Source: Candidatus Stramentimicrobium fermentans
GTDB lineage: Bacteria > Atribacterota > Phoenicimicrobiia > Phoenicimicrobiales > Stramentimicrobiaceae
DNA length: 64,000 nucleotides
Reading direction: 5' to 3'
NCBI GenBank assembly: GCA_012520575.1
Contig: JAAYOB010000007.1
Location: 1 to 64,000, forward strand
The position numbers and the translations under genes are program-made. The notes beneath the pieces are model-generated. The model was not told where the DNA came from. It saw only the letters and a list, made by a program, of their open reading frames with translations, and did not search any database. Of this stretch, positions 27,389 through 55,772 are shown in pieces. Each line of letters opens with the position of its first letter. Positions within the stretch are counted from its first letter, which is position 1.

Positions 27389-28873
27389 TCAATGGATAAT
27401 TTCGGTATCCGGATGCACTATCTGTATCCAGACATTTCCAGGCTGTATTGCTAATCTATTACCATCTTTGTTATAAAAGAAGGTTTTCGATCTCTGCGTT
27501 TCTTTAAGCCAGGTTATTTCTTCCGACCTACCATTGTAAATAATTAACCCCGTCCCTTTACCAATTAAATCAACCGCCAATCTCCCTTCACTATCCAATA
27601 TCTTTTTATTGCTGTGTTGAATAATAATATTTTTGGCCTGTAATTGCTGACCTGTTTCTAAATCAGTGTGGGGTTTCCCATTTATGAAACGGACATATAG
27701 CTGTGTTCCAGAAACATATTCATAACTAACCGAATAGTTAGTATTATATTTAATAGCTATTTTCTGAATATCTTTACCAATTAATTCTTCTCTAGCATCA
27801 ATTTCAAATTGATAATCACCTTTATTGACCATTTCAATATAACCTAATCTCTTGGCCTCTTGTCTCAATTTTTCGGTTGAAGAGTAAAGGTTATGGGGCG
27901 GCTTGCGTTCGGACACTCTCCAAAAGGGCTGAAAATGAATTAATTCATTGATATCATCTATTCTCTCTTCTTTTATAAAAATAGCAGCATCTGGGCTTTC
28001 CCCGGCATGTACATAAACGGCATTGTGCTCCAGAGCTTTAGTAATAAAATAAGGTCTGGCACTACGAATAGGTCCAACTTTATTGGTATCCTGGGTAGCA
28101 AAAATAGCTAAGAAGCGTGTTATTCCTCCTTCTGCTAACACTTCATAGACAATATTGGCATTTCCTAGACCACTTTGTGGACGAGAAACGCTAGCATTAT
28201 CAATCATTATGGCCAGAGGCCTTTGATCAAAAGGAGACTCTTTCTCTGTTGTTTTAGGTAATGTGCTTAATTCTCCTGGAGTTACAATGGTCCCATAGGT
28301 TGACTCAATACGGTCTTGTCCTTCTAAACCTAACCTTGCCTGTATTTCAAATTCACCTTTTTCTAAGACCTCTCCCTCGATTTCTCTACGACTGGCAATA
28401 CTGGGGGTGAGGTCTCGATCAGCTATTTGTACATTAGGCACTATAGATATCTCCTCTTTAATTTGAGCCACCTCTTCCCTAGCCGGGATTTCAATTTCGG
28501 GCATTTTAACCTCAACTCTAGGATTACTTTCCACAACCATTTCATTTTTTTCCACTAATGGCTTGGTTTCAATTTCTTGTATTTTAGCCGGTTCCGGTAG
28601 AGTAGGCTCCACCCTGGGTCTGACGCTGACTTCAGCAATTGGCTCTTCCCTTGTTATCTCAGGCTTTACTGTAGTGGGGCTTTTGATAGAGGGCAGTTCT
28701 ACCATGGTAACCTCAATAATATCTTCAATTTCCGGTATATTTATAAACTCAAAAGAGAGCAGATTGTTAAAAGCCAGAATAAACATGATATTAAGAAATA
28801 TTGAGATTAGGAATGAACGCCCCAAAAAACTTTTGGGCTGCTTTCTTCTTCTTTTTGCTCTATATCCTGCCAT
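27389..28873 (-). CDS. TonB-like membrane anchor and linker fused to a DUF3048 domain
   Basis: The 494-residue protein begins with a basic stretch and one transmembrane helix (about 18-42), then IIEVTMVELPS, which resembles the segment after the TonB anchor (ISVTMV in E. coli). Residues 60-170 are a Pro/Glu/Val/Lys-rich linker. From about 214 the DUF3048 (YerB-like) domain follows (RPLAIMIDNASVSRPQSGLG, VGPIRSARPYF, HAGESPDAA), with the DUF3048 C-terminal domain from about 380. The helix carries SIFLN where TonB has SxxxH. It follows exbB and exbD on the same strand by 42 bases, exactly where tonB would lie. DUF3048 has no known reaction; in Bacillota it is a lipoprotein. The fusion replaces the usual TonB C-terminal domain. 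Function unknown. Confidence 0.85.
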   Translation of the reverse strand: MAGYRAKRRRKQPKSFLGRSFLISIFLNIMFILAFNNLLSFEFINIPEIEDIIEVTMVELPSIKSPTTVKPEITREEPIAEVSVRPRVEPTLPEPAKIQEIETKPLVEKNEMVVESNPRVEVKMPEIEIPAREEVAQIKEEISIVPNVQIADRDLTPSIASRREIEGEVLEKGEFEIQARLGLEGQDRIESTYGTIVTPGELSTLPKTTEKESPFDQRPLAIMIDNASVSRPQSGLGNANIVYEVLAEGGITRFLAIFATQDTNKVGPIRSARPYFITKALEHNAVYVHAGESPDAAIFIKEERIDDINELIHFQPFWRVSERKPPHNLYSSTEKLRQEAKRLGYIEMVNKGDYQFEIDAREELIGKDIQKIAIKYNTNYSVSYEYVSGTQLYVRFINGKPHTDLETGQQLQAKNIIIQHSNKKILDSEGRLAVDLIGKGTGLIIYNGRSEEITWLKETQRSKTFFYNKDGNRLAIQPGNVWIQIVHPDTEIIH

Positions 28874-28915
28874 TATTTTTATTAAACACCTTATGAATTA
28901 TAATATCTCTTTGAT

Positions 28916-29323
28916 TCATTTTTCCCTAGGCTTAGTTGCTATGGCAATCCTCTCTGCCCCGCCCTTCTTAATCAGGTCCATAACTCTTACTACTTTACCA
29001 TGGGAAATATTCTGATCTGCTTCTAAAACAACCAAGGAATTATGGTTGCTCTTTATCTCTTCCTGTACCTTTTCCGATAAAGAGTTCGGGTCTATCAAGC
29101 GGTTATTGATATAAATTACGTTGTTTTCAGTAATAGTTACTATGGTGTTCTTCTGTTCCTTGACCGCCGCAAAATCGCCGCTTGGCAAATCAACTTTGAC
29201 TCCGCTTTCTACATTGATAAAGGTAGTAGTTAGCATGAAAAAGATGAGTAATTGAAACACGACATCAATTAAAGGAGTTAAATCAAATTTCAGAGCCTTG
29301 GTATTGGGACGATAAAATCTCAT
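28916..29323 (-). CDS. exbD: ExbD/TolR-family biopolymer transport protein
   Basis: The 135-residue protein has a short cytosolic N-terminus, a single transmembrane helix (about 17-38) carrying the essential proton-path Asp in LTPLIDVVFQLLIFFML, and a periplasmic ExbD domain. ExbD with ExbB converts the proton-motive force into movement of a TonB-type partner. The gene overlaps exbB by 41 bases, more than usual. The next gene supplies a TonB-like anchor. Confidence 0.93.
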   Translation of the reverse strand: MRFYRPNTKALKFDLTPLIDVVFQLLIFFMLTTTFINVESGVKVDLPSGDFAAVKEQKNTIVTITENNVIYINNRLIDPNSLSEKVQEEIKSNHNSLVVLEADQNISHGKVVRVMDLIKKGGAERIAIATKPREK

Positions 29324-29954
29324 CTATTTCTATATCCTCCTCTTTAATTTCTCTCTTTACCGATAATAGATCCAAAATTTCTGTACTGGAGGCCTCCATC
29401 TCCCTTATCTGTCTTTCTACTCTATTACTAAGATAATTGTAAGCAACTATGGTGGGAATCGCCACAGAAAGACCAAATGCTGTAGTTAATAAGGCTTCAG
29501 AAATAGCCCCAGCCAGAGCTTCGGGGTTACCAACACCGACAATGGAAATAACCTGAAATCCCTTTATCATGCCAAATACAGTACCTAGCAATCCCAAAAG
29601 AGGGGCAATATTACCGATGGTTGCCAGTATTGGTAAATTTTTTTCTAAAACAATTATTTCTTGATTGGCGGTATCTTCGATTGCTTCTTTTATCTCATCG
29701 CGGGTACCGCCATACTTTAATAAAGCAGCTAAAATAATCTGAGATATAGGAGAATAATTTTTGCGACAGGCAGTAATCGCATAATTAATATTCCCTTTTC
29801 TGATTAAATCACAGATTCGATTACTGAATTTTCGAGTGGAAGTCTTGATGCTCCTTAAAAAAAACATCCGCTCAAAGAATATGGCAATCGCCAATAGGGA
29901 GCAGAAAAATATGGGATACATTAAAACTCCGCCCTTATAAAATAATTCAAACAT
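29283..29954 (-). CDS. exbB: ExbB/TolQ/MotA-family proton channel protein
   Basis: The 223-residue protein has three transmembrane helices (about 10-30, 105-130 and 150-175) and the family signature LGLLGTVFGMIKGFQVI (near 123), with LLTTAFGLSVAIPTIVAYNYL in the third helix. It forms the pentameric proton channel of ExbBD/TolQR motors. The absence of tolB, pal or tolA here argues against a Tol-Pal set; the partner gene suggests an ExbBD-type role. The upstream gene is a very large TPR protein. Confidence 0.92.
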   Translation of the reverse strand: MFELFYKGGVLMYPIFFCSLLAIAIFFERMFFLRSIKTSTRKFSNRICDLIRKGNINYAITACRKNYSPISQIILAALLKYGGTRDEIKEAIEDTANQEIIVLEKNLPILATIGNIAPLLGLLGTVFGMIKGFQVISIVGVGNPEALAGAISEALLTTAFGLSVAIPTIVAYNYLSNRVERQIREMEASSTEILDLLSVKREIKEEDIEIDEILSSQYQGSEI

Positions 29955-30075
29955 TAATTAGATGCCTCCTCCAAATCAATAAGATTTCTTATTTTTATTT
30001 TTCATACTAAACCTGGCGAATGTCGAAGGGATTCCAGGCTATTTTTATGATCTCCCTATCAGATTATTCCTTTAT

Positions 30076-33000
30076 TTATTCTAATCTTCTCCTGGCATTA
30101 TCAGCATAAATTGTTTCCGGGCATCTTTGAAGGAGCATTTCATATTTTTCCTTAGCCTGTAACTGATGCCCTGATTCTTCCTGACAAATTGCTGTTATGT
30201 ATAAAACATCACATATATAGGTGCCAGTAGGATAATATTCAAGGTATTTCTCCCCAGCCTGTACGGCTTTTTCGCATTCTTCTTTTTTATAGTAACTCAA
30301 ACAAAGGCCATAGAGAGAATTGGGCTTGTACTTGCTATTTGGAAAACGATCCAATAATTTTTCAAAATTTATGATGCTATCGAACCATTTTTCTTCTTCC
30401 AAGCCTATTTGAGCCATAATGTAGAAGCCTTCTTCATTAAACTGGCTTAGTGGATAAGCCTTCGTAAAATCTTGTAACTCTATCCTTGCTTCACCATATT
30501 CTTTTGCTAAAAAATGGGTCTTTGCTAATAGGTAGGTACCTTCCTCCGCAAATTGACTATCAGGATATTTCTGGACCAACTTGTCAAATGATTCTACTGC
30601 TTTTGAGTAATCAGGGAGGTTTAAATAGCTCCAACCGACACTATATAGCACATGCGCCGCTAAAGAATGTGTATCATAGTGTTTCAAAAATTCCTGATAA
30701 TATTCTATTGCACTACTGAATTTTTCCTGTTTATAGTAAGTTTCAGCCAACATATATAAAGCCCTTATAGAGATTTCATCACCAGTTAAATAATCAATCT
30801 GATGAAAATACTCTTCTGCCTGAGAATAATCAGTTAAACGGAAAAAACATAGCCCTTGCCAATAATATATTTCTTTCCTCATCTTATCGCTGGTAATCAT
30901 ACTTTCGATTCTTTTAAAAAGTTCAACGGCTTCCCGAAATTCGCCTCTTTCATATTTATCTTTAGCCAGGGCAAAATAGCCCTCTCTAGCCAGAGCATCA
31001 TCTGAATGCTGCTCCGTCAATTCCTGATAAAGAGAAAGTAGCCTTTCTTCATCATTCATCTTGTTAGCTGCCTCAATTTTTAACTCCAGTGCTTCTTTAC
31101 TATTAACATCTTCTAAGGCAATCAAAACATTTTGATATCGGCCTGCTTGATAATAACTTCGGGCAAGTTCTAATGTTGCTATGTCAATAATTTCTCCCCC
31201 CGGAAACTGATTGATTACCCGCTCGAAATATGGAATCGCTTTTTGTTCTTCTCCTTTTCTGGCATAAGCCAACCCTAAATCGAACCATATTCTCTCCAGC
31301 AGACTTTCCTCAATATTCTTCTCCGCCAGAGAACTGTCAATTTCGATAACTCTATCATAGTCTTTTTGTTCTAACAATGCTCTAGCTAGAAGATATTGTG
31401 CTTCGAGTTGTATTGGGCTTTCCTTCTTAGTTAATTCCTCTAAAATTACTCTTGCCTCTCGGTAATTGCCCTCTTTGAATAATATAAAGCTAAGATAGTA
31501 TCTGGTTTCATTAATCAATTCAAAATCAGTCTCGTTATTCAAGATATCGGCGAAATATGCTTTTGCCTGATCATAGAGACCTTCCTGAAAATAAGATTGT
31601 CCTAAGATAAAATCAATTTCGCATTTATCAAATACCAAAGGTTCAAACGATAGTAAATTTTCATAGAGGTTGATAGCTTGGGTATACTTTTTTTGCATGA
31701 AATAGACCCTACCTAATTTATAGAGAGTTTCCGGGTAAAGGCTGCTTTTTGGAAAATTCTTACTCAATAATTCCAAGGAAATTTCAGCCTGATTATAGTC
31801 TCCTAACATATAAGCACACCAGCCGCTGCCCAGCAAGGCATTTTCATAATATATGCTATCTTTATAATTATCAATTAGATATATATAATGCTGGTTTGCT
31901 TCGCCATAATGTCCTAATTTATAAGCCGCCTCAGCCATCAAAAATCTCGCCTCAAAAAAATCAGGATTGATAGCCAGGATTTCTCTCAGTTTTTCTAAAG
32001 CCCTTTCATAATCTTCTAAAGAATAATAATTATAAGCTAATTGGTAATATTCCCGCTCCCAATCGATATCGTAAGCCTGGATACCGCCAATTTTCTCTCT
32101 TTCTTCCAGATATTCTTCCATCTGATTTAAATGATAATAGGTACGCATTAAATAAATTCTCGTTTTCTCAAAATTAGAATTCTTCCGGGCAGATTCTTTA
32201 AACTTAAGTAACGCTTCTTCATATTCTCCGGCGATATAATATTGGTAACCTTCATTAAAAGCCCAGACTGTCTCCCTGCCAAATTCTTTTTCTTCCTGAG
32301 CTTTATCCAGGTATATTCTGGCATTATTATCAAAAGGGTCTAAGCGGACAGCATTTTCTAAGTAAATAATTGAGTTGTTTAAGTCTCCAATATGATAATA
32401 ACTTAATCCTAAAAAGTGGTGGGCTCCTTTAAAATCTTTGCTGAGATCAATTGCGAGCTTAAAAAATTCAATAGCTTCCGACCATTTCTTATTGCTATAG
32501 GCATTATATCCGGTAACATATAACTCGTAGGCCTCTTTACCATATAGTTCGGCTTGTTGATACTGGCTGAAAACCCACTCGATATCCTTGCCTGGATCCG
32601 CCTTCTTTATTTCTTCGCCTTGTTCCAGGGCTTTTGCTGTTTGACCTGATTCATAATAAAGCCTCATCAAAAATATCCTTGCCTTTATATTGTTCGGCTG
32701 ATAAAAAATTGCCTCGGTAAGATTGTTAATAGCAGAGGCTGTATCCCCTTTTTCATTATATGAATAGGCTATACGATAAAAAGCCTCCGATAATTTTTGA
32801 TAACTTATCTTAATATTAGTATTATTCTGTACTATTTCAGTAAACCTCTCCAGACTAGCTATTTCTCGAGCAGTCCATTTAGTTCTTTCATATATTTGTG
32901 CCAATAGATAATATGCTTCAGCGAAATGAGGATCCTCTGATACTGCCTTTTCTCCATAATCAATGGCTTTGGCCCAGAGCGGTTTACTGGGGAAATCCAC

Positions 33001-33678
33001 CCCCTGATATTCAGTAATTGCCTGATTCTTTAATTCTAAGGCTTGATAGTAGTTACTTAGAGCTTTCCAAGAAGAAGAAATATTATTTTTTAAGTTAATG
33101 GCTAAATTTTCGTCAATGTCAAAATTGGCTTCTTGTAGTATAGATTGAGCTATACGTTCTTTTAAATAGAAAATATCTTCAGGTATTAAAGTTATCTCTT
33201 GGAATTCAGATAATTTATTGAATTGTGATTGGTACATAATCAGGTTAAACTTGAGGATATCCCTCTGTTCTAATGAAAAATAACCGGTGAAAATCAGGTC
33301 TACCTGTAACAAATCATCTAAGGAATGAAACAAGGAGAGATCTTTCTTCATTGCCAATCCTTGGGCCAAATCGTGGCCTGGCAATTTTTCTATTTCTCCC
33401 AGAGGAATATAATTAATTCTTTCTGATTGAGAGAAGGCCTGGCTCAACATATCAGGGAGACCTCTCTCTAACCAATTCCATTCATCCCTTCCCGTTAGAT
33501 TCTCAAAATAATAGACTGCAAAACTGTGAGTTTCGATAGCAGGAGAAGAGAGGGTAAATATATTGCAAAATAAAGAGATGAAGAATACTAAATAGAAAAA
33601 ATAGCATAATAATGATTTATTTAATATATTATTGACAAAAGCTTTTTTTTTATTATTATTTGAATTTGATAAATTCAC
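30076..33678 (-). CDS. Large exported TPR protein with TolB-N/FlgO-like N-terminal domain
   Basis: The 1200-residue protein starts at GTG. A transmembrane or signal segment covers about 22-45. Residues about 50-165 (FAVYYFENLTGRDEWNWLERGLPDMLSQAF) resemble the TolB N-terminal/FlgO-type fold. From about 215 to the end there are some twenty-five or more TPR or TPR-like repeats, many of the BamD/YbgF type (for example YPDSQFAEEGTYLLAKTHF). It is the first gene of the TPR-exbB-exbD-TonB/DUF3048 group. An envelope scaffold that supplies cargo or reach to the motor is inferred; no enzyme domain is visible. The gene is intact with no frameshift. Confidence 0.82.
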   Translation of the reverse strand: MNLSNSNNNKKKAFVNNILNKSLLCYFFYLVFFISLFCNIFTLSSPAIETHSFAVYYFENLTGRDEWNWLERGLPDMLSQAFSQSERINYIPLGEIEKLPGHDLAQGLAMKKDLSLFHSLDDLLQVDLIFTGYFSLEQRDILKFNLIMYQSQFNKLSEFQEITLIPEDIFYLKERIAQSILQEANFDIDENLAINLKNNISSSWKALSNYYQALELKNQAITEYQGVDFPSKPLWAKAIDYGEKAVSEDPHFAEAYYLLAQIYERTKWTAREIASLERFTEIVQNNTNIKISYQKLSEAFYRIAYSYNEKGDTASAINNLTEAIFYQPNNIKARIFLMRLYYESGQTAKALEQGEEIKKADPGKDIEWVFSQYQQAELYGKEAYELYVTGYNAYSNKKWSEAIEFFKLAIDLSKDFKGAHHFLGLSYYHIGDLNNSIIYLENAVRLDPFDNNARIYLDKAQEEKEFGRETVWAFNEGYQYYIAGEYEEALLKFKESARKNSNFEKTRIYLMRTYYHLNQMEEYLEEREKIGGIQAYDIDWEREYYQLAYNYYSLEDYERALEKLREILAINPDFFEARFLMAEAAYKLGHYGEANQHYIYLIDNYKDSIYYENALLGSGWCAYMLGDYNQAEISLELLSKNFPKSSLYPETLYKLGRVYFMQKKYTQAINLYENLLSFEPLVFDKCEIDFILGQSYFQEGLYDQAKAYFADILNNETDFELINETRYYLSFILFKEGNYREARVILEELTKKESPIQLEAQYLLARALLEQKDYDRVIEIDSSLAEKNIEESLLERIWFDLGLAYARKGEEQKAIPYFERVINQFPGGEIIDIATLELARSYYQAGRYQNVLIALEDVNSKEALELKIEAANKMNDEERLLSLYQELTEQHSDDALAREGYFALAKDKYERGEFREAVELFKRIESMITSDKMRKEIYYWQGLCFFRLTDYSQAEEYFHQIDYLTGDEISIRALYMLAETYYKQEKFSSAIEYYQEFLKHYDTHSLAAHVLYSVGWSYLNLPDYSKAVESFDKLVQKYPDSQFAEEGTYLLAKTHFLAKEYGEARIELQDFTKAYPLSQFNEEGFYIMAQIGLEEEKWFDSIINFEKLLDRFPNSKYKPNSLYGLCLSYYKKEECEKAVQAGEKYLEYYPTGTYICDVLYITAICQEESGHQLQAKEKYEMLLQRCPETIYADNARRRLE

Positions 33679-49521: not shown

Positions 49522-52500
49522 ATGTTTAAACATAAAGAATTTTTTGGAAAGAGAATTTTTTTGTTCCTTATTTTTTCCATCTTTCTATCTCTATTCTATT
49601 TTTCTGTGCCAAACTTTCTTTTTGATAATCCTTCACAGCTAGTTGTTTATAGTAAAAACTATGATCCAACACTCAACTGGAATGTTATAGAGGGCAAACA
49701 TTACTCCATAATCTTCCCGACGGAGATACCAGATAAGGAAGGTTCTCCCTATAAACAGATTGCCCTTCATATCGCTGAAATAGCCGAAGAAATCTATTCT
49801 CAAATAACTCTACAGTTTGGAACGCCTTATAATCCAGATAAGAAATTTGCTATTATTTTAGAAGATTTCCATGATTCGACATATGGATTTGCCTCAACAG
49901 TTCCCCATTATCTTATTCGTATTAATTTGACTGCACCCGGTCCGGAAATTTTCGACACCAAATTTGAAAGCTGGCTAAGAATTTTAATCGCTCATGAATA
50001 TACGCACTTAGCACATTTTGATATGACCGATAAAATGACCACTTTCCTACGCTTTTTTTTAGGTCAAACTATCACCCCAAACGCCTTGCAGCCCCTTTGG
50101 TCTATTGAAGGATTAGCTATTTACAATGAGAGCAGATTAAACGCAGGTAGAGGCCGACTAAAAGATAGCAGATATGAGATGTATCTTAGAACCGATTTTT
50201 TGGAAAACAGATTAAAAAATCTTGAACAATTAGAAGGTGGACACCTGATCTCTTGGCCGGCAGGAAATGCTCCTTATATCTATGGACAATCACTAGTTCA
50301 CTTTATCGCCGAAGTATATGGTGAAGAAAAACTGATAGCCATAAGCAAGCAGTTTTCTTCTTTTCCTCTGCTAGGAATGGACTGGGCGTTAAAAAAAGTT
50401 TTAGGTATTGACCAAAATAAACTATATCAAAGATGGAAGTGTGAGAAAGAACAATATTTCGAACAACAGGTTAGACGTATTGTCAATTCTGATAAAATAA
50501 CCGAATCGCAACAAATTACCGACCACTGTTATTGGGTTGAATGTCCTTCCTGGCTAATTGATAACGATATTAAAGATTCCTCTCTTACTTATAGAGTCTT
50601 TAAGCCACATCTTTACTCCACCATACGTAAATATAACCGGAATTCCGGTAAAGAAAGCTTGTTGATAAAAAGAACAGGCGGACATGGCACCTCTTACTCC
50701 TTTTCACCTGATTTTCAATATCTTCTTTACGCTAAACAAATTCAATATAGTCACTACTATACCTATAATGATCTATTCTTATTTCACTTAAATACTGGTA
50801 AGCAATACCAGCTTACTGAGAGAATGAGAATTAAAGACCCCGCCTGGCACCCTGTGCCGGCTGTTGATAAGATTGTCGCGGTAATCAATCAAGCCGGCTC
50901 TAATAACCTGGTCTTATTCTCTATTCAAAATATTATGCCGCAAAATGAACCAGAACAAATGGATCTTATCAATACTGCCGACCTTACTTATTTAACTAAT
51001 TTTAAAGACGGCTCTCAGATTTACCAACCGGTCTGGTCACCCCAAGGTGACCGAATTGCCTTTTCGTTATGGCGCAAAGGCTATCAAGATATATATGTTA
51101 TTACCCTTGATGAAGATCATCTCAAAATACAATCTATAATACCTATCACTTATGACCGTTATACTGATATTAGTCCCAATTGGTCAGTTGACGGTCAATA
51201 TTTATTTTTTTCGTCAGATCGTAATAAGATATTCAATTTATATGCCTATTCCTTACCTGATAACCAGTTCTACCGCTTAACCAATGTCGCTACCGGTGCC
51301 TTTGAGCCGGCTGTTTCACCTAGCGGAAAAGAGATGGCTTTTGTGCAATACCACGCCTCAGGTTATGAATTACATGTAGCCAAAATGGACGATTTACTCT
51401 GGGAATTAATAGAAGAAACCGACATGGAGGAAACGGCTGATGTCCCCCATCTGCAAGACAATGTCATCTATTTTTTACCTTTAGAATCACTCGAAGATAA
51501 CGAGGTTAATCAATCCTTAGCACTGCCCCATGGTATTCCAAAGAATACTCATTATACTTTAAAGAGCTATTCTCCTTGGGATAGCATTATGCCCAATTAT
51601 TTGTTTCCCTATGCGGATATCGCAGGAGGTAACCTCTATCTGGGAGCCTCAACCCTGGCTCGGGATTATCTAGGATTTTACTCTATCCCGCTTACACTTG
51701 CCTACAATCTTTCTAATAATTCTTTATTTTATAATCTCCAATGTCTCTATACCGCATGTGAACCATCATTTTCCCTTACCTGGCAAGGTGAAACTTCTTA
51801 CTACACCAGACTCCAGCTATCCTTAGAATTCAGCGATAGCGGATATACCGGTAAAGGCGATTCCGATAGGTTATATTCTAGAAACATAACAATGGGGACT
51901 TTGAGTGAATGTTTATTTACTGTTCAAGGGGAACAGGATGAATTATCAGAAAAAACACCCGTTGTAACTAATTCCTTGTTCTTAAGATACACTTACAGTG
52001 ATACTGAAAAATACCAATGGTCTATTGGTCCAGAAATTGGTAATTTATTTTCTGTCAACTACCAATATGCTGTACCCTATACTGACCATGAAGCTGCTTT
52101 TCATAGAATTATCTTTGATAGCAGAAAATATCTACCGCTACCGGTATCCAATCAGGTTCTAGCTTTAAGATTGGTAGCAGGATACTCCTCTAGTGAAATT
52201 GATAAAAATGCTATATTCAGCCTTGGAGGAAACTCATCTGCCCAAAATCTTAGCTCTTTCAATAGCAAAGACTTTGCTTTGAGAGGGTATCCTTCCTCTT
52301 CTTTTGCCGGAAATCACCTCTTGCTTTGTTCGTTAGAGTATCGTTTTCCTCTAAAAAGAGTAGAACAAAAAATAGGCTACAAAGGTGCATCTCTGTTTTT
52401 AGAACAAGTTTTTGGAGCTTTATTTATAGAAGCAGGACATGCGTGGAATAAAAACTCCTTTCCGCGTTTGAAAGATTTTAACGCTTCCCTGGGTGCGGAA

Positions 52501-52620
52501 GTGGGGTTTATACTTAAAACCAGATATACAGAACCACTTACTTTGGCTTTCGGTATTGGAAAGGCCATCACCCAAACCCTCCCTACCCGCTTTTATGGAA
52601 GAATAGGCCTCTCTTTTTGA
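49522..52620 (+). CDS. Zinc metalloprotease + TolB-like propeller + Omp85-like outer-membrane barrel
   Basis: The 1032-residue protein is the only plus-strand gene. A signal peptide or anchor covers about 10-32. A gluzincin-type protease domain follows, with HEYTH at 158-162 and the third ligand Glu in WSIEGLAIY at about 193-201. Residues about 330-640 carry TolB/WD40-like propeller repeats (YQPVWSPQGDRIAFS, ISPNWSVDGQYLFFSSD, EPAVSPSGKEMAFV). The C-terminal 340 residues form a predicted beta-barrel of the Omp85/bacterial surface antigen type, with the RGYPSSSFAGN motif and a final Phe (YGRIGLSF). An outer-membrane protein with a periplasmic protease and propeller is inferred. AGGG lies six bases before the ATG. 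The substrate is unknown. Confidence 0.85.
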   Translation: MFKHKEFFGKRIFLFLIFSIFLSLFYFSVPNFLFDNPSQLVVYSKNYDPTLNWNVIEGKHYSIIFPTEIPDKEGSPYKQIALHIAEIAEEIYSQITLQFGTPYNPDKKFAIILEDFHDSTYGFASTVPHYLIRINLTAPGPEIFDTKFESWLRILIAHEYTHLAHFDMTDKMTTFLRFFLGQTITPNALQPLWSIEGLAIYNESRLNAGRGRLKDSRYEMYLRTDFLENRLKNLEQLEGGHLISWPAGNAPYIYGQSLVHFIAEVYGEEKLIAISKQFSSFPLLGMDWALKKVLGIDQNKLYQRWKCEKEQYFEQQVRRIVNSDKITESQQITDHCYWVECPSWLIDNDIKDSSLTYRVFKPHLYSTIRKYNRNSGKESLLIKRTGGHGTSYSFSPDFQYLLYAKQIQYSHYYTYNDLFLFHLNTGKQYQLTERMRIKDPAWHPVPAVDKIVAVINQAGSNNLVLFSIQNIMPQNEPEQMDLINTADLTYLTNFKDGSQIYQPVWSPQGDRIAFSLWRKGYQDIYVITLDEDHLKIQSIIPITYDRYTDISPNWSVDGQYLFFSSDRNKIFNLYAYSLPDNQFYRLTNVATGAFEPAVSPSGKEMAFVQYHASGYELHVAKMDDLLWELIEETDMEETADVPHLQDNVIYFLPLESLEDNEVNQSLALPHGIPKNTHYTLKSYSPWDSIMPNYLFPYADIAGGNLYLGASTLARDYLGFYSIPLTLAYNLSNNSLFYNLQCLYTACEPSFSLTWQGETSYYTRLQLSLEFSDSGYTGKGDSDRLYSRNITMGTLSECLFTVQGEQDELSEKTPVVTNSLFLRYTYSDTEKYQWSIGPEIGNLFSVNYQYAVPYTDHEAAFHRIIFDSRKYLPLPVSNQVLALRLVAGYSSSEIDKNAIFSLGGNSSAQNLSSFNSKDFALRGYPSSSFAGNHLLLCSLEYRFPLKRVEQKIGYKGASLFLEQVFGALFIEAGHAWNKNSFPRLKDFNASLGAEVGFILKTRYTEPLTLAFGIGKAITQTLPTRFYGRIGLSF

Positions 52621-52707
52621 TTAAATATTCCCCCACCTACCTTTACAGCTCTTTAATTTTCCTCAACTAGCACCTACAATATTCTTAACCCAATAGGTTG
52701 TTCCCCT

Positions 52708-53778
52708 TTAGATTAAACGTACTTTGCTATCATCAGCAAGGATAAACTCATACACCAAGGGAATATTTACCGAACGATAAATATGGACATTTTTGCCAAT
52801 CAAGCAGTTCTGCATGCGGTACCTTACCTGCTTAATATTGGTATTAGCCATAACAACACTGTATTCAATCTCACTATTTTCTATTTCAACCTTATCAGAT
52901 AATGAAGTAAAAGGCCCGATAAAAGAATTGACAATTCTGGCTCTTTCGCCAATAATCACCGGCCCCATTATCGTTGAGTTGATTATCTCCACTCCCTGTG
53001 CCAGTTTCACTCTGCCAAATATCTTTGATTTATGATCAATCTTAGCATCTCCTAAATCACGCTCAATGTCTTCTAATACCAATCGATTAGCTTCCAGAAT
53101 ATCCTCCGGTTTTCCGGTATCCTTCCACCAGCCTTCAATTATTTCAGCATCCACTTCATATTGATTCTCTAACAGCCATTGAATGGCATCTGTTATTTCT
53201 AATTCTCCCCTTGCCGAAGGTTTGATAGCATCTATGGCAGTATGAATGGTAGAATCAAAAAAATAAACACCAATTAAAGCAAGGTCAGTCATTGGTTTTA
53301 AAGGCTTTTCCTCTAATTTGACTATTCTATTTTCTTTAAGTTCAGCTACACCAAATTGTTCCGGATTTTCCACTCTGGTTAATAATACCAAGGCCTTGGG
53401 CTTATCTTTTTCAAACCTTTGCCGATAGGGATAAATGCTATTCTTTAATAAATTATCACCTAAGAACATTAAAAAACATTCCTCTTGTAAAAAATCACGG
53501 GCAACTTTTACGGCATGGGCCAGGCCAAGTGGTTTTGATTGTAGAATATAGCTTACCTTAACACCCCATCTCTCTCCATCCCCTATAGCTTTTTTTATAT
53601 CTTCGCCGTTGTCTTCACCAATTATCAAGCCAATCTCCGTGATACCACATTCCACAATCTTTTCAACGCCAAATTCCAAAGCAGGCTTATTAGCCAGAGG
53701 AATTAAATGCTTGGCGCTAGTGTGGGTTAATGGCCTTAAGCGAGTACCCTTGCCGGCACAAAGAATTATCGCTTTCAT
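52708..53778 (-). CDS. Sugar-1-phosphate nucleotidyltransferase, RmlA long form
   Basis: The 356-residue protein has the nucleotide-binding start MKAIILCAGKGTRLRPLTH and the motif LGDNLLKN, then a left-handed beta-helix C-terminal part with hexapeptide-like repeats (about 240-350). This matches the long form of glucose-1-phosphate thymidylyltransferase. The nucleotide and the sugar cannot be fixed from sequence alone. It probably makes dTDP-glucose or a similar precursor for the surface glycan. It is convergent with the plus-strand gene. Confidence 0.88.
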   Translation of the reverse strand: MKAIILCAGKGTRLRPLTHTSAKHLIPLANKPALEFGVEKIVECGITEIGLIIGEDNGEDIKKAIGDGERWGVKVSYILQSKPLGLAHAVKVARDFLQEECFLMFLGDNLLKNSIYPYRQRFEKDKPKALVLLTRVENPEQFGVAELKENRIVKLEEKPLKPMTDLALIGVYFFDSTIHTAIDAIKPSARGELEITDAIQWLLENQYEVDAEIIEGWWKDTGKPEDILEANRLVLEDIERDLGDAKIDHKSKIFGRVKLAQGVEIINSTIMGPVIIGERARIVNSFIGPFTSLSDKVEIENSEIEYSVVMANTNIKQVRYRMQNCLIGKNVHIYRSVNIPLVYEFILADDSKVRLI

Positions 53779-53834
53779 TGTCCATCTCCTTTTATTCTAA
53801 AATATTGCTTACTCACCTATAAATACTATTAAGA

Positions 53835-54590
53835 TTATTTACCGGGGTTAATTCCCTTTTCTTCCATATAAGCCTTTTCTCTCATCGAGTTCACATACTC
53901 TTTTCTCTGAAAAGAGTATGTGAAATTAGTATGAATATCGTAAGTACCTTCGATTAAGGCTGTTACATCCTCAACAAAAACCAGTTCTTCATCAGTGGGA
54001 ATTACCAGTACTTTTACCGGTGAATCGGAATGGGAGATATTAAATTCTTTATTGCGAGTTCTGGTTAATCTATTCTTTTCGGAATCGTACTCAATCCCCA
54101 ATATTTCCAAACCATATAATACCTTCGTCCGTATCGTGTCACCCATTTCCCCTACTCCAGCTGTAAAAATAAGAGCGTCTAATCTCCCTAGAACTGCAGC
54201 GTAGGCACCGATGTATTTTTTCAACCGGCAAAACTTCCATCTCTACAGCTAAGCTGGCTCTTTTTTCCCTTTCTTCAGCCGCTTTTTAATCACATTTCTT
54301 CTATCAATGTACTTTCCTGTGATACCTAATAGCCCACTCTTTTTATTCAATATGCTGTCAATCTCTTGAGGAGAATAATCTTCCTTTTGCATCATATAGA
54401 AGTCGAGAGCAGCAGCATGGTCTCCGGCCCTGGTGCCTATAATTGCTCCCCCTAAGGTGGTAAAACCCATACTGGTATCATAGGATAGTCCATTCTTTAC
54501 AGCATTTATACTTACTCCATTCCCTATATGACAACTAATCAGGTTACACCGGAAGGATCTTTGTTTAAAATTACTGCTACTCTTTTCGCT
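53835..54590 (-). pseudogene. ackA: Truncated, frameshifted acetate kinase remnant
   Basis: The pieces read, in order, AKRVAVILNKDPSGVT, then LISCHIGNG...DTSMGFTTLGGAIIGTRAGD...KKSGLLGITGKY, then [11 protein letters not shown], then [27 protein letters not shown] to the end. All are typical acetate kinase blocks, covering roughly residues 190-400. The N-terminal half is missing: the remnant begins directly after the wecB stop codon. Three frame changes are needed, near 54541, at the A6 run near 54261-54266 and near 54231-54234. Acetate kinase interconverts acetyl phosphate and acetate; this copy cannot make a working enzyme. The frame changes at homopolymers could be sequencing errors, but the lost 5' half cannot. 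Confidence 0.85.
53891..53923. repeat. Perfect 15-bp inverted repeat with 3-base loop
   Basis: TCACATACTCTTTTC is followed by TCT and then by its exact reverse complement GAAAAGAGTATGTGA. It lies within the last frame of the acetate kinase remnant. There is no T run on either strand directly after the stem, so it is not a simple terminator. Confidence 0.9.
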
Positions 54591-54596
54591 TAATTA

Positions 54597-55772
54597 TTAT
54601 CTTTTACTGTCAAACTCTTTAGGAAATTCTTCTAAATACTGATATTGATAAAGAATATATCGCACAATTCTTTGAGCAGCAAGCCCATCGCCATAGGGAG
54701 ATTTTTTTGCAACCATTGTTTGATAATAAACCGGATTTTTTAATAACTTATCCACTTCTTTGTTAATAGCCTCCTGATCTGTACCTACCAATCGGGCAGC
54801 CCCTATACTGACAACTTCCGGCCTTTCTGTTTCTTCCCTCAAAATTAAGACCGGCTTACCCAATGCCGGCGCCTCTTCCTGTATCCCGCCAGAATCGGTC
54901 AAAATAATAGTAGAGAAAGCCATTAAGTTGGCCATCTCCTTATAATTCAACGGCTCCAATAAAATAATATTGCTCTGGCTACTTAAATGTTTATGTACAA
55001 CTCTCCTGATAATAGGATTTTTATGGAGAGGGAAAAAAATAACGATGTTTTTATATCTTTGGGAAATACTTAATAAAGCTTGACAGACATTTTCCAGAGG
55101 TTTCCCCCAATTCTCACGTCTATGCATAGTCACTAACACAACCTTTTCATGGCTATCCCTGAATTGGTTAATTCTATTATCGGTAAATTGAAAATTACTT
55201 TCTAACATGAGCAAAAAAGCATCAATCACGGTATTGCCGGAAACAAAGATATTCTCTCTCTCAATACCTTCTTTTTCCAGTAGTTTTGCCGCTAAAGGAG
55301 TGGGAGGGAAATGATAATCAGCTAAAACAGTAGTTAATCTACGATTAATCTCTTCCGGAAAAGGATAGTATTTTTTAAAGGTTCGCAATCCTGCCTCAAT
55401 ATGTCCAACCCTAATTTTTTGATAAAAGGCTGCTAATGCCCCTGAAAAAGTAGTAGTAGTATCCCCTTGTACCAATACTAAATCAGGTAAGATCTTCTCA
55501 AAAACCTCTTCTAATTTAATTAAGGAAGAGGAATTTATATGGGATAAAGATTGCCCCTGTTCCATAATAGCGAGGTCAATATCCGGTTCAATCTGAAACA
55601 GGTTTATCATCTGGTCGAGCATTTCTCGGTGTTGAGCAGTTAAAATTACAAAAGGGGTTAGCCAATGGGGGTATTCTTTTGCCTCCCGAATAACGGGAAA
55701 CATCTTTATCGCTTCCGGTCTGGTTCCAAAAACAAAGGCAATCTTGATTTTCTTATCTTTTTTATTCTCCAT
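54597..55772 (-). CDS. wecB: UDP-N-acetylglucosamine 2-epimerase (non-hydrolysing)
   Basis: The 391-residue enzyme interconverts UDP-GlcNAc and UDP-ManNAc. The start FVFGTRPEAIKMFPVI, the HIEAGLRTF motif (near 125), TMHRRENWG (near 217) and the C-terminal LTDSGGIQEEAPALGKPVLILREETERPE are all present. It supplies ManNAc for lipid-linked glycan synthesis and in Bacillus (mnaA) it also follows upp. Here upp lies about 150 bases upstream. Confidence 0.96.
   Translation of the reverse strand: MENKKDKKIKIAFVFGTRPEAIKMFPVIREAKEYPHWLTPFVILTAQHREMLDQMINLFQIEPDIDLAIMEQGQSLSHINSSSLIKLEEVFEKILPDLVLVQGDTTTTFSGALAAFYQKIRVGHIEAGLRTFKKYYPFPEEINRRLTTVLADYHFPPTPLAAKLLEKEGIERENIFVSGNTVIDAFLLMLESNFQFTDNRINQFRDSHEKVVLVTMHRRENWGKPLENVCQALLSISQRYKNIVIFFPLHKNPIIRRVVHKHLSSQSNIILLEPLNYKEMANLMAFSTIILTDSGGIQEEAPALGKPVLILREETERPEVVSIGAARLVGTDQEAINKEVDKLLKNPVYYQTMVAKKSPYGDGLAAQRIVRYILYQYQYLEEFPKEFDSKR

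Follow-up and report, generated by a model that had tools for sequence, protein, structure and literature searches.

A TonB-type anchor joined to a DUF3048 domain in a conserved ExbBD locus of Atribacterota: a predicted class of proton-driven force transducer

The stretch of DNA analysed here (64,000 nucleotides, referred to as the window) comes from an Atribacterota genome, G000, of 1.58 Mb and 98% completeness. The nearest named record to the window, Ca. Atribacteria JAKQEP010000137.1, has 78% identity and full synteny. Within the window, four open reading frames lie in one row, all on the minus strand, as do all the features of the locus described below. They encode a TPR protein (30076-33678; 1200 residues with a signal-like N-terminal segment), an ExbB/TolQ proton channel (29283-29954; Pfam MotA_ExbB, 6e-35), an ExbD/TolR protein (28916-29323; Pfam ExbD, 9e-31) and a DUF3048 protein of 494 residues (27389-28873), which is proposed to be a TonB-anchored force transducer. 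The exbD gene overlaps exbB by 41 bases and the DUF3048 gene lies 42 bases beyond exbD. All four genes were assigned by Pfam well above cut-off.

An AlphaFold2 model of the DUF3048 protein showed one helix, then disorder, then a folded domain. The helix (18-39 in the model, which is numbered from residue 2) is the membrane helix at residues 19-40 (28754-28819). The disordered part is a linker of about 148 residues, rich in Glu, Pro, Val and Ile and with low pLDDT (28250-28693), and residues 209-494 are mostly a high-confidence fold. This last region is a DUF3048 (YerB) domain (27392-28249), in which Pfam recognised DUF3048 N at residues 211-345 (PF11258, 1e-46, 159 bits) and DUF3048_C at residues 372-483 (PF17479, 9e-31, 107 bits), the cut-offs being 25 bits; these were the only domains found and TonB_C (PF03544) was absent. 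The domain matched Bacillus subtilis YerB (2psb) by phmmer (5e-47) and by fold, with Z 35.1 and an rmsd of 2.2 Å over 275 residues. No structure besides 2psb stood out for DUF3048 in the PDB fold search, and a weak likeness to IF2 (Z 3.2) was set aside. The initial annotation had described a row of TPR, ExbB, ExbD and a fusion of a TonB-like anchor to a complete DUF3048 domain. The row and the fusion are borne out by the coordinates, Pfam and the AlphaFold2 model, and the completeness of the domain by both Pfam halves and the full fold match to 2psb.

The membrane helix of the DUF3048 protein contains S24-xxx-N28 (28790-28804), the counterpart of S16-xxx-H20 in TonB and S18-xxx-H22 in TolA. 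In an alignment of 42 members of the family the Ser is invariant and the Asn nearly so; His occupies the position of TonB H20 in one member only, L071 of family f7 (SLVIH), and the others have Asn. Cryo-EM of the Ton and Tol systems showed that TonB S16/H20 and TolA S18/H22 contact Ser34/Trp38 of ExbB or Ser28/Trp32 of TolQ (PMC12215075). When TM1 of the Atribacterota ExbB proteins was aligned by eye, the Ser was found to be kept and the Trp position to be hydrophobic, core and TonB-associated ExbBs being alike. The replacement of His20 by Asn in all members but one counts against reading the protein as part of a motor, and is a natural variant at a motor-contact position that is considered essential for both TonB and TolA. 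Asn at position 20 reportedly supports TonB function; the literature searched contained no text on such a variant of TonB.

Beyond the helix, residues 53-59 (28697-28717) have the sequence IEVTMVE, a proposed ExbD-docking strand that starts 29 residues past the helix Ser. It is like the D-box of E. coli TonB, 45-ISVTMVT-51, which lies 29 residues past S16 (PMC12215075) and forms a beta-strand gripped by the ExbD dimer (PMC12215075; PMC10907165). The versions in relatives (IMVTLVELP, VVVELMEIP, IVIQVLEIP and others) retain the alternation and the trailing Pro. A relaxed D-box pattern was matched by 35 of the 42 members, at a spacing of 28-31 residues from the helix Ser, and by 38 of 21000 shuffled sequences, with no second match within the real proteins; as the pattern was composed after viewing the family, its counts and the shuffle figure are descriptive and not a test. 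The remaining seven members carry LTLV[ST]L[VI]E[IL]P, a near-match. When a hydrophilic residue was required at the second position, the stricter pattern fitted just two members at the right place. The length of the linker stays within 146-153 residues in 38 of 41 members, although its sequence diverges. The TonB-like anchor first noted as a helix, IIEVTMVELP and a Pro/Glu/Lys/Val linker is upheld by the SxxxN/H motif, the D-box at TonB-like spacing and the disordered linker. The prediction from sequence that it is of TonB type and coupled to ExbBD is strongly supported by these features together with the synteny, the proton-path residues and the separate Ton system described below.

Conservation was counted in a sample of 50 Atribacterota genomes representing 22 genera. 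A long DUF3048 protein of about 500 residues is present in 44 of them and in every genus. The loci of 43 relatives were compared with that of the window. In all 39 loci with enough contig (38 relatives and the window) exbD is directly upstream of the DUF3048 gene, and in the other five relatives the contig stops within about 500 bases upstream of this gene. ExbB and TPR genes are found upstream of exbD wherever the contig reaches. The same arrangement is seen in the single-contig assemblies G005 and G025 and, since it recurs in 44 of the 50 genomes including these two, neither chance nor faulty assembly accounts for it. The six genomes that lack the long DUF3048 protein, most of them incomplete MAGs, gave no ExbD match either, which would follow from loss or absence of the whole locus together. 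One of the conditions that the initial annotation had set for reading exbBD and the DUF3048 gene as a chance neighbourhood was that no related genome had the two side by side; the search found them together across Atribacterota. That reading, for which no point in favour was found, is refuted by the phylum-wide synteny, and the motifs for binding ExbB and ExbD within the DUF3048 protein itself also stand against it, so that its probability is practically nil.

A scan of genome contigs gave one true relative (L032, Ca. Atribacteria). A Fictibacillus locus (L033) was rejected as a relative, the match covering 59 residues only and being unlike a DUF3048 protein, and the viral contigs searched contained no relatives. 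Two loci, L058 (2660-3807) and L074 (2897-3969), have exbB-exbD duplicated as identical DNA, of 1148 and 1073 bases respectively, flanking the TPR gene. In related genomes the contigs break off at exbD. In families f3-f6 (L037 10145-10912, L038, L048, L058, L062 and L074) a gene resembling that of lipoprotein diacylglyceryl transferase (Lgt) directly adjoins the stop codon of the DUF3048 gene or overlaps it. It sits before xerD and was seen in most of the f3-f6 genomes looked at.

The best PDB match of the window ExbB is TolQ. ExbB has the pore Thr/Glu residues and ExbD the proton-carrying Asp (in LIDVVF). A true TonB is also found in Atribacterota: the TonB_C domain occurs in ten of the 50 genomes, G000 included, in a TBDR-TonB-ExbB-ExbD locus that has its own ExbBD, is separate from the DUF3048 locus and encodes a TonB with SxxxH in its helix. 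In a phylogenetic tree the ExbBs of the TonB locus fall in a clade of their own, separate from the core ExbBs (support 100/100). Thus, in the sampled Atribacterota, the DUF3048 motor is general and the Ton system patchy. These results bear on the possibility that the locus serves uptake through an outer-membrane receptor, with DUF3048 in place of the TonB C-terminal domain. The TonB-like helix, D-box and linker would fit such a role, but TBDR plug domains are present in only 13 of the 50 genomes and lie at the TonB locus in those that have TonB_C, and the conserved neighbourhood of the DUF3048 locus contains no TBDR or other receptor gene. Energising a TBDR was therefore rejected as the main role, and uptake of this kind is very unlikely.

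The DUF3048 domain at the tip of the protein was compared with free DUF3048 proteins, of which a small set was used. Among the residues conserved in fused and free domains alike are N226, Q233, E248, T252, R253, R270, S271, R273, R319 and N328, suggesting that the presumed functional site is kept. Free DUF3048 proteins occur in the monoderm Bacillota and Actinomycetota, several with lipobox-like N-termini. In Parageobacillus, YerB has been called a lipoprotein whose function is unknown (PMC13068155); DUF3048 was mentioned once in the literature searched, its function being given as unknown. Plasmid records contain DUF3048 only as free monoderm-type proteins, besides one partial, unannotated match of 43% identity on a Klebsiella variicola plasmid (L104, CP063894.1), an odd host that may reflect contamination. 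Many f1/f2 genomes also encode an additional short secreted DUF3048 paralogue at another site; in L077-L083 it lies beside cytidine deaminase and recO genes, often near hemolysin/CorC-type genes.

Because DUF3048 also occurs in monoderms, a wall ligand or wall-bound partner is preferred as the target of the tip, and would be likelier than an outer-membrane receptor. The conserved polar residues that the fused domain shares with free DUF3048 proteins, and the lipobox-like N-termini of monoderm members, likewise speak for a ligand that can do without an outer membrane. The shared residues N226, Q233, E248, R253, R270, R273, R319 and N328 fit ligand binding or catalysis, and could also belong to a membrane-anchored DUF3048 enzyme or sensor that ExbBD gates or positions in response to the proton gradient, no force being delivered. 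This is unlikely, as a disordered linker of near-constant length and a D-box are hallmarks of an arm that pulls.

The TPR protein was also modelled. Residues 48-212 (33043-33537) form a confident alpha/beta domain in a structure model (pLDDT 91), and its best Foldseek matches were N-domains of TolB (E 8e-5, probability 1.00; Z up to 11.1). This TolB-N-like fold precedes the TPRs and no propeller match was found in the protein. Through this fold the operon looks like a Tol system that lacks Pal and carries another tip. The fold is also present in FlgT, CadC, LpoB and PelC, which makes the likeness of the TPR protein to Tol unspecific. No OmpA/Pal domain was found above cut-off in G000 (98% complete), and the OmpA domain is patchy across Atribacterota.

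The locus might thus be a substitute for Tol-Pal, in which the motor would draw the outer membrane inward at division, with the TolB-N/TPR protein and another outer-membrane partner in place of Pal. In keeping with this, TolQ is the closest solved structure to ExbB, the fold on the TPR protein recalls TolB and CpoB, a Pal domain was not detected in G000, and Omp85 is present in 48 of the 50 genomes, yet Tol-Pal has been reported only in Gracilicutes (PMC12204202). Against it, no conserved outer-membrane partner was found and monoderms also have DUF3048. The window does encode, at 49522-52620 on the plus strand, a 1032-residue protein that combines an N-terminus of HExxH type with TolB-like propeller repeats and an Omp85 barrel at the C-terminus, but this protein seems confined to families f1 and f2. 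Second Omp85 matches of the propeller type were found almost only in these two families, and share the contig of the motor locus in G000, G040, G042, G047 and G048. A Tol-Pal substitute is a real possibility, on the doubtful side; the locus is a candidate for what takes the place of Tol-Pal in this diderm lineage of terrabacteria, some members of which are in culture and have an unusual envelope. SLH proteins, which represent the OmpM type of tether (PMC10628300), occur in 37 of the 50 genomes, and contig C50 of G000 encodes a 567-residue SLH protein near Omp85/BamA (about 51073-55317), an OmpM-like tether candidate.

The preferred reading is that the locus probably encodes a dedicated proton-driven motor of Tol/Ton type, which delivers force to the periplasmic DUF3048 domain. 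If it works like Ton and Tol (PMC12215075), protons would cross the ExbB-ExbD channel and ExbD would move, presumably by turning. ExbD would grip the strand of the D-box, which lies just beyond the membrane helix, and the linker would be pulled or wound, so that force would reach the distal DUF3048 domain, which would drag on what it holds. The ligand may be peptidoglycan or a wall-bound partner, possibly together with the TolB-N/TPR protein, and the motor may serve a Tol-like upkeep of the envelope. The movement, the production of force and the grip of DUF3048 on a periplasmic or wall ligand are inferred, as is the action on the wall or outer membrane suggested in the initial annotation. Parts for each proposed step are present, and the analysis shows the gene order, domains, motifs, proton-path residues, near-constant linker length, synteny and a distinct ExbB clade. 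Besides the Asn, the points against a motor are that the TolB-N-like fold is not specific to Tol and that the sampling is of Atribacterota. A broader proposal, which we hold tentatively and at somewhat below an even chance, is that Atribacterota in general have a third class of proton-driven force transducer, with DUF3048 as a domain that both bears force and binds the wall, and that together with the TolB-N/TPR protein it makes up a Tol-like system in a terrabacterial phylum. If so, the YerB domain of monoderms would bind the same wall ligand as the Atribacterota tip. The widespread, uncharacterised DUF3048/YerB family gains its first mechanistic setting here.

Compared with known systems, the tip has the entire DUF3048 fold and conserved polar residues of B. 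subtilis YerB, whereas the motor anchor, D-box and linker are features of the Atribacterota fusion and are lacking in YerB. The Ton system (TonB-ExbB-ExbD) shares the ExbB/ExbD channel, the SxxxH-like motif, the D-box spacing and the disordered Pro/Glu-rich linker; it differs in that here the tip is DUF3048 and not TonB_C, Asn replaces His, the neighbourhood is without a TBDR and a TPR/TolB-N partner lies upstream. Tol-Pal (TolQRA-TolB-Pal-CpoB) is similar in that the ExbB is nearest to TolQ and that the operon has a TPR protein and a TolB-N-like fold, but here these two are combined in one protein without a propeller, there is no Pal, and DUF3048 stands for TolA domain III.

The initial annotation had assumed that only TonB or TolA follows ExbBD. 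This premise is out of date, since vWA-tipped transducers lie downstream of TPR-tolQ-tolR genes (PMC12204202). The paper that describes them (Williams-Jones et al. 2025, PMC12204202) places them in Proteobacteria, PVC, Bacteroidetes and Rhodothermaota and does not report them for Atribacterota, and its main text makes no mention of a YerB or DUF tip; no DUF3048-tipped transducer was found in the literature searched. The vWA loci (PMC12204202) have the same succession of TPR, tolQ-like and tolR-like genes, then a transducer made up of a helix, a motor box, a linker and an unrelated domain at the C-terminus. They differ in having a vWA fold and SHLS with His, where the Atribacterota protein has a DUF3048/YerB fold and SxxxN. 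As these transducers have been described (PMC12204202), motor arms that bear an unrelated tip are already known. We therefore file the DUF3048-tipped arm as a predicted new class of proton-driven force transducer, the general idea of which has a precedent in vWA, and the short list of tips of TonB-like force transducers (TonB, TolA and vWA) gains DUF3048.
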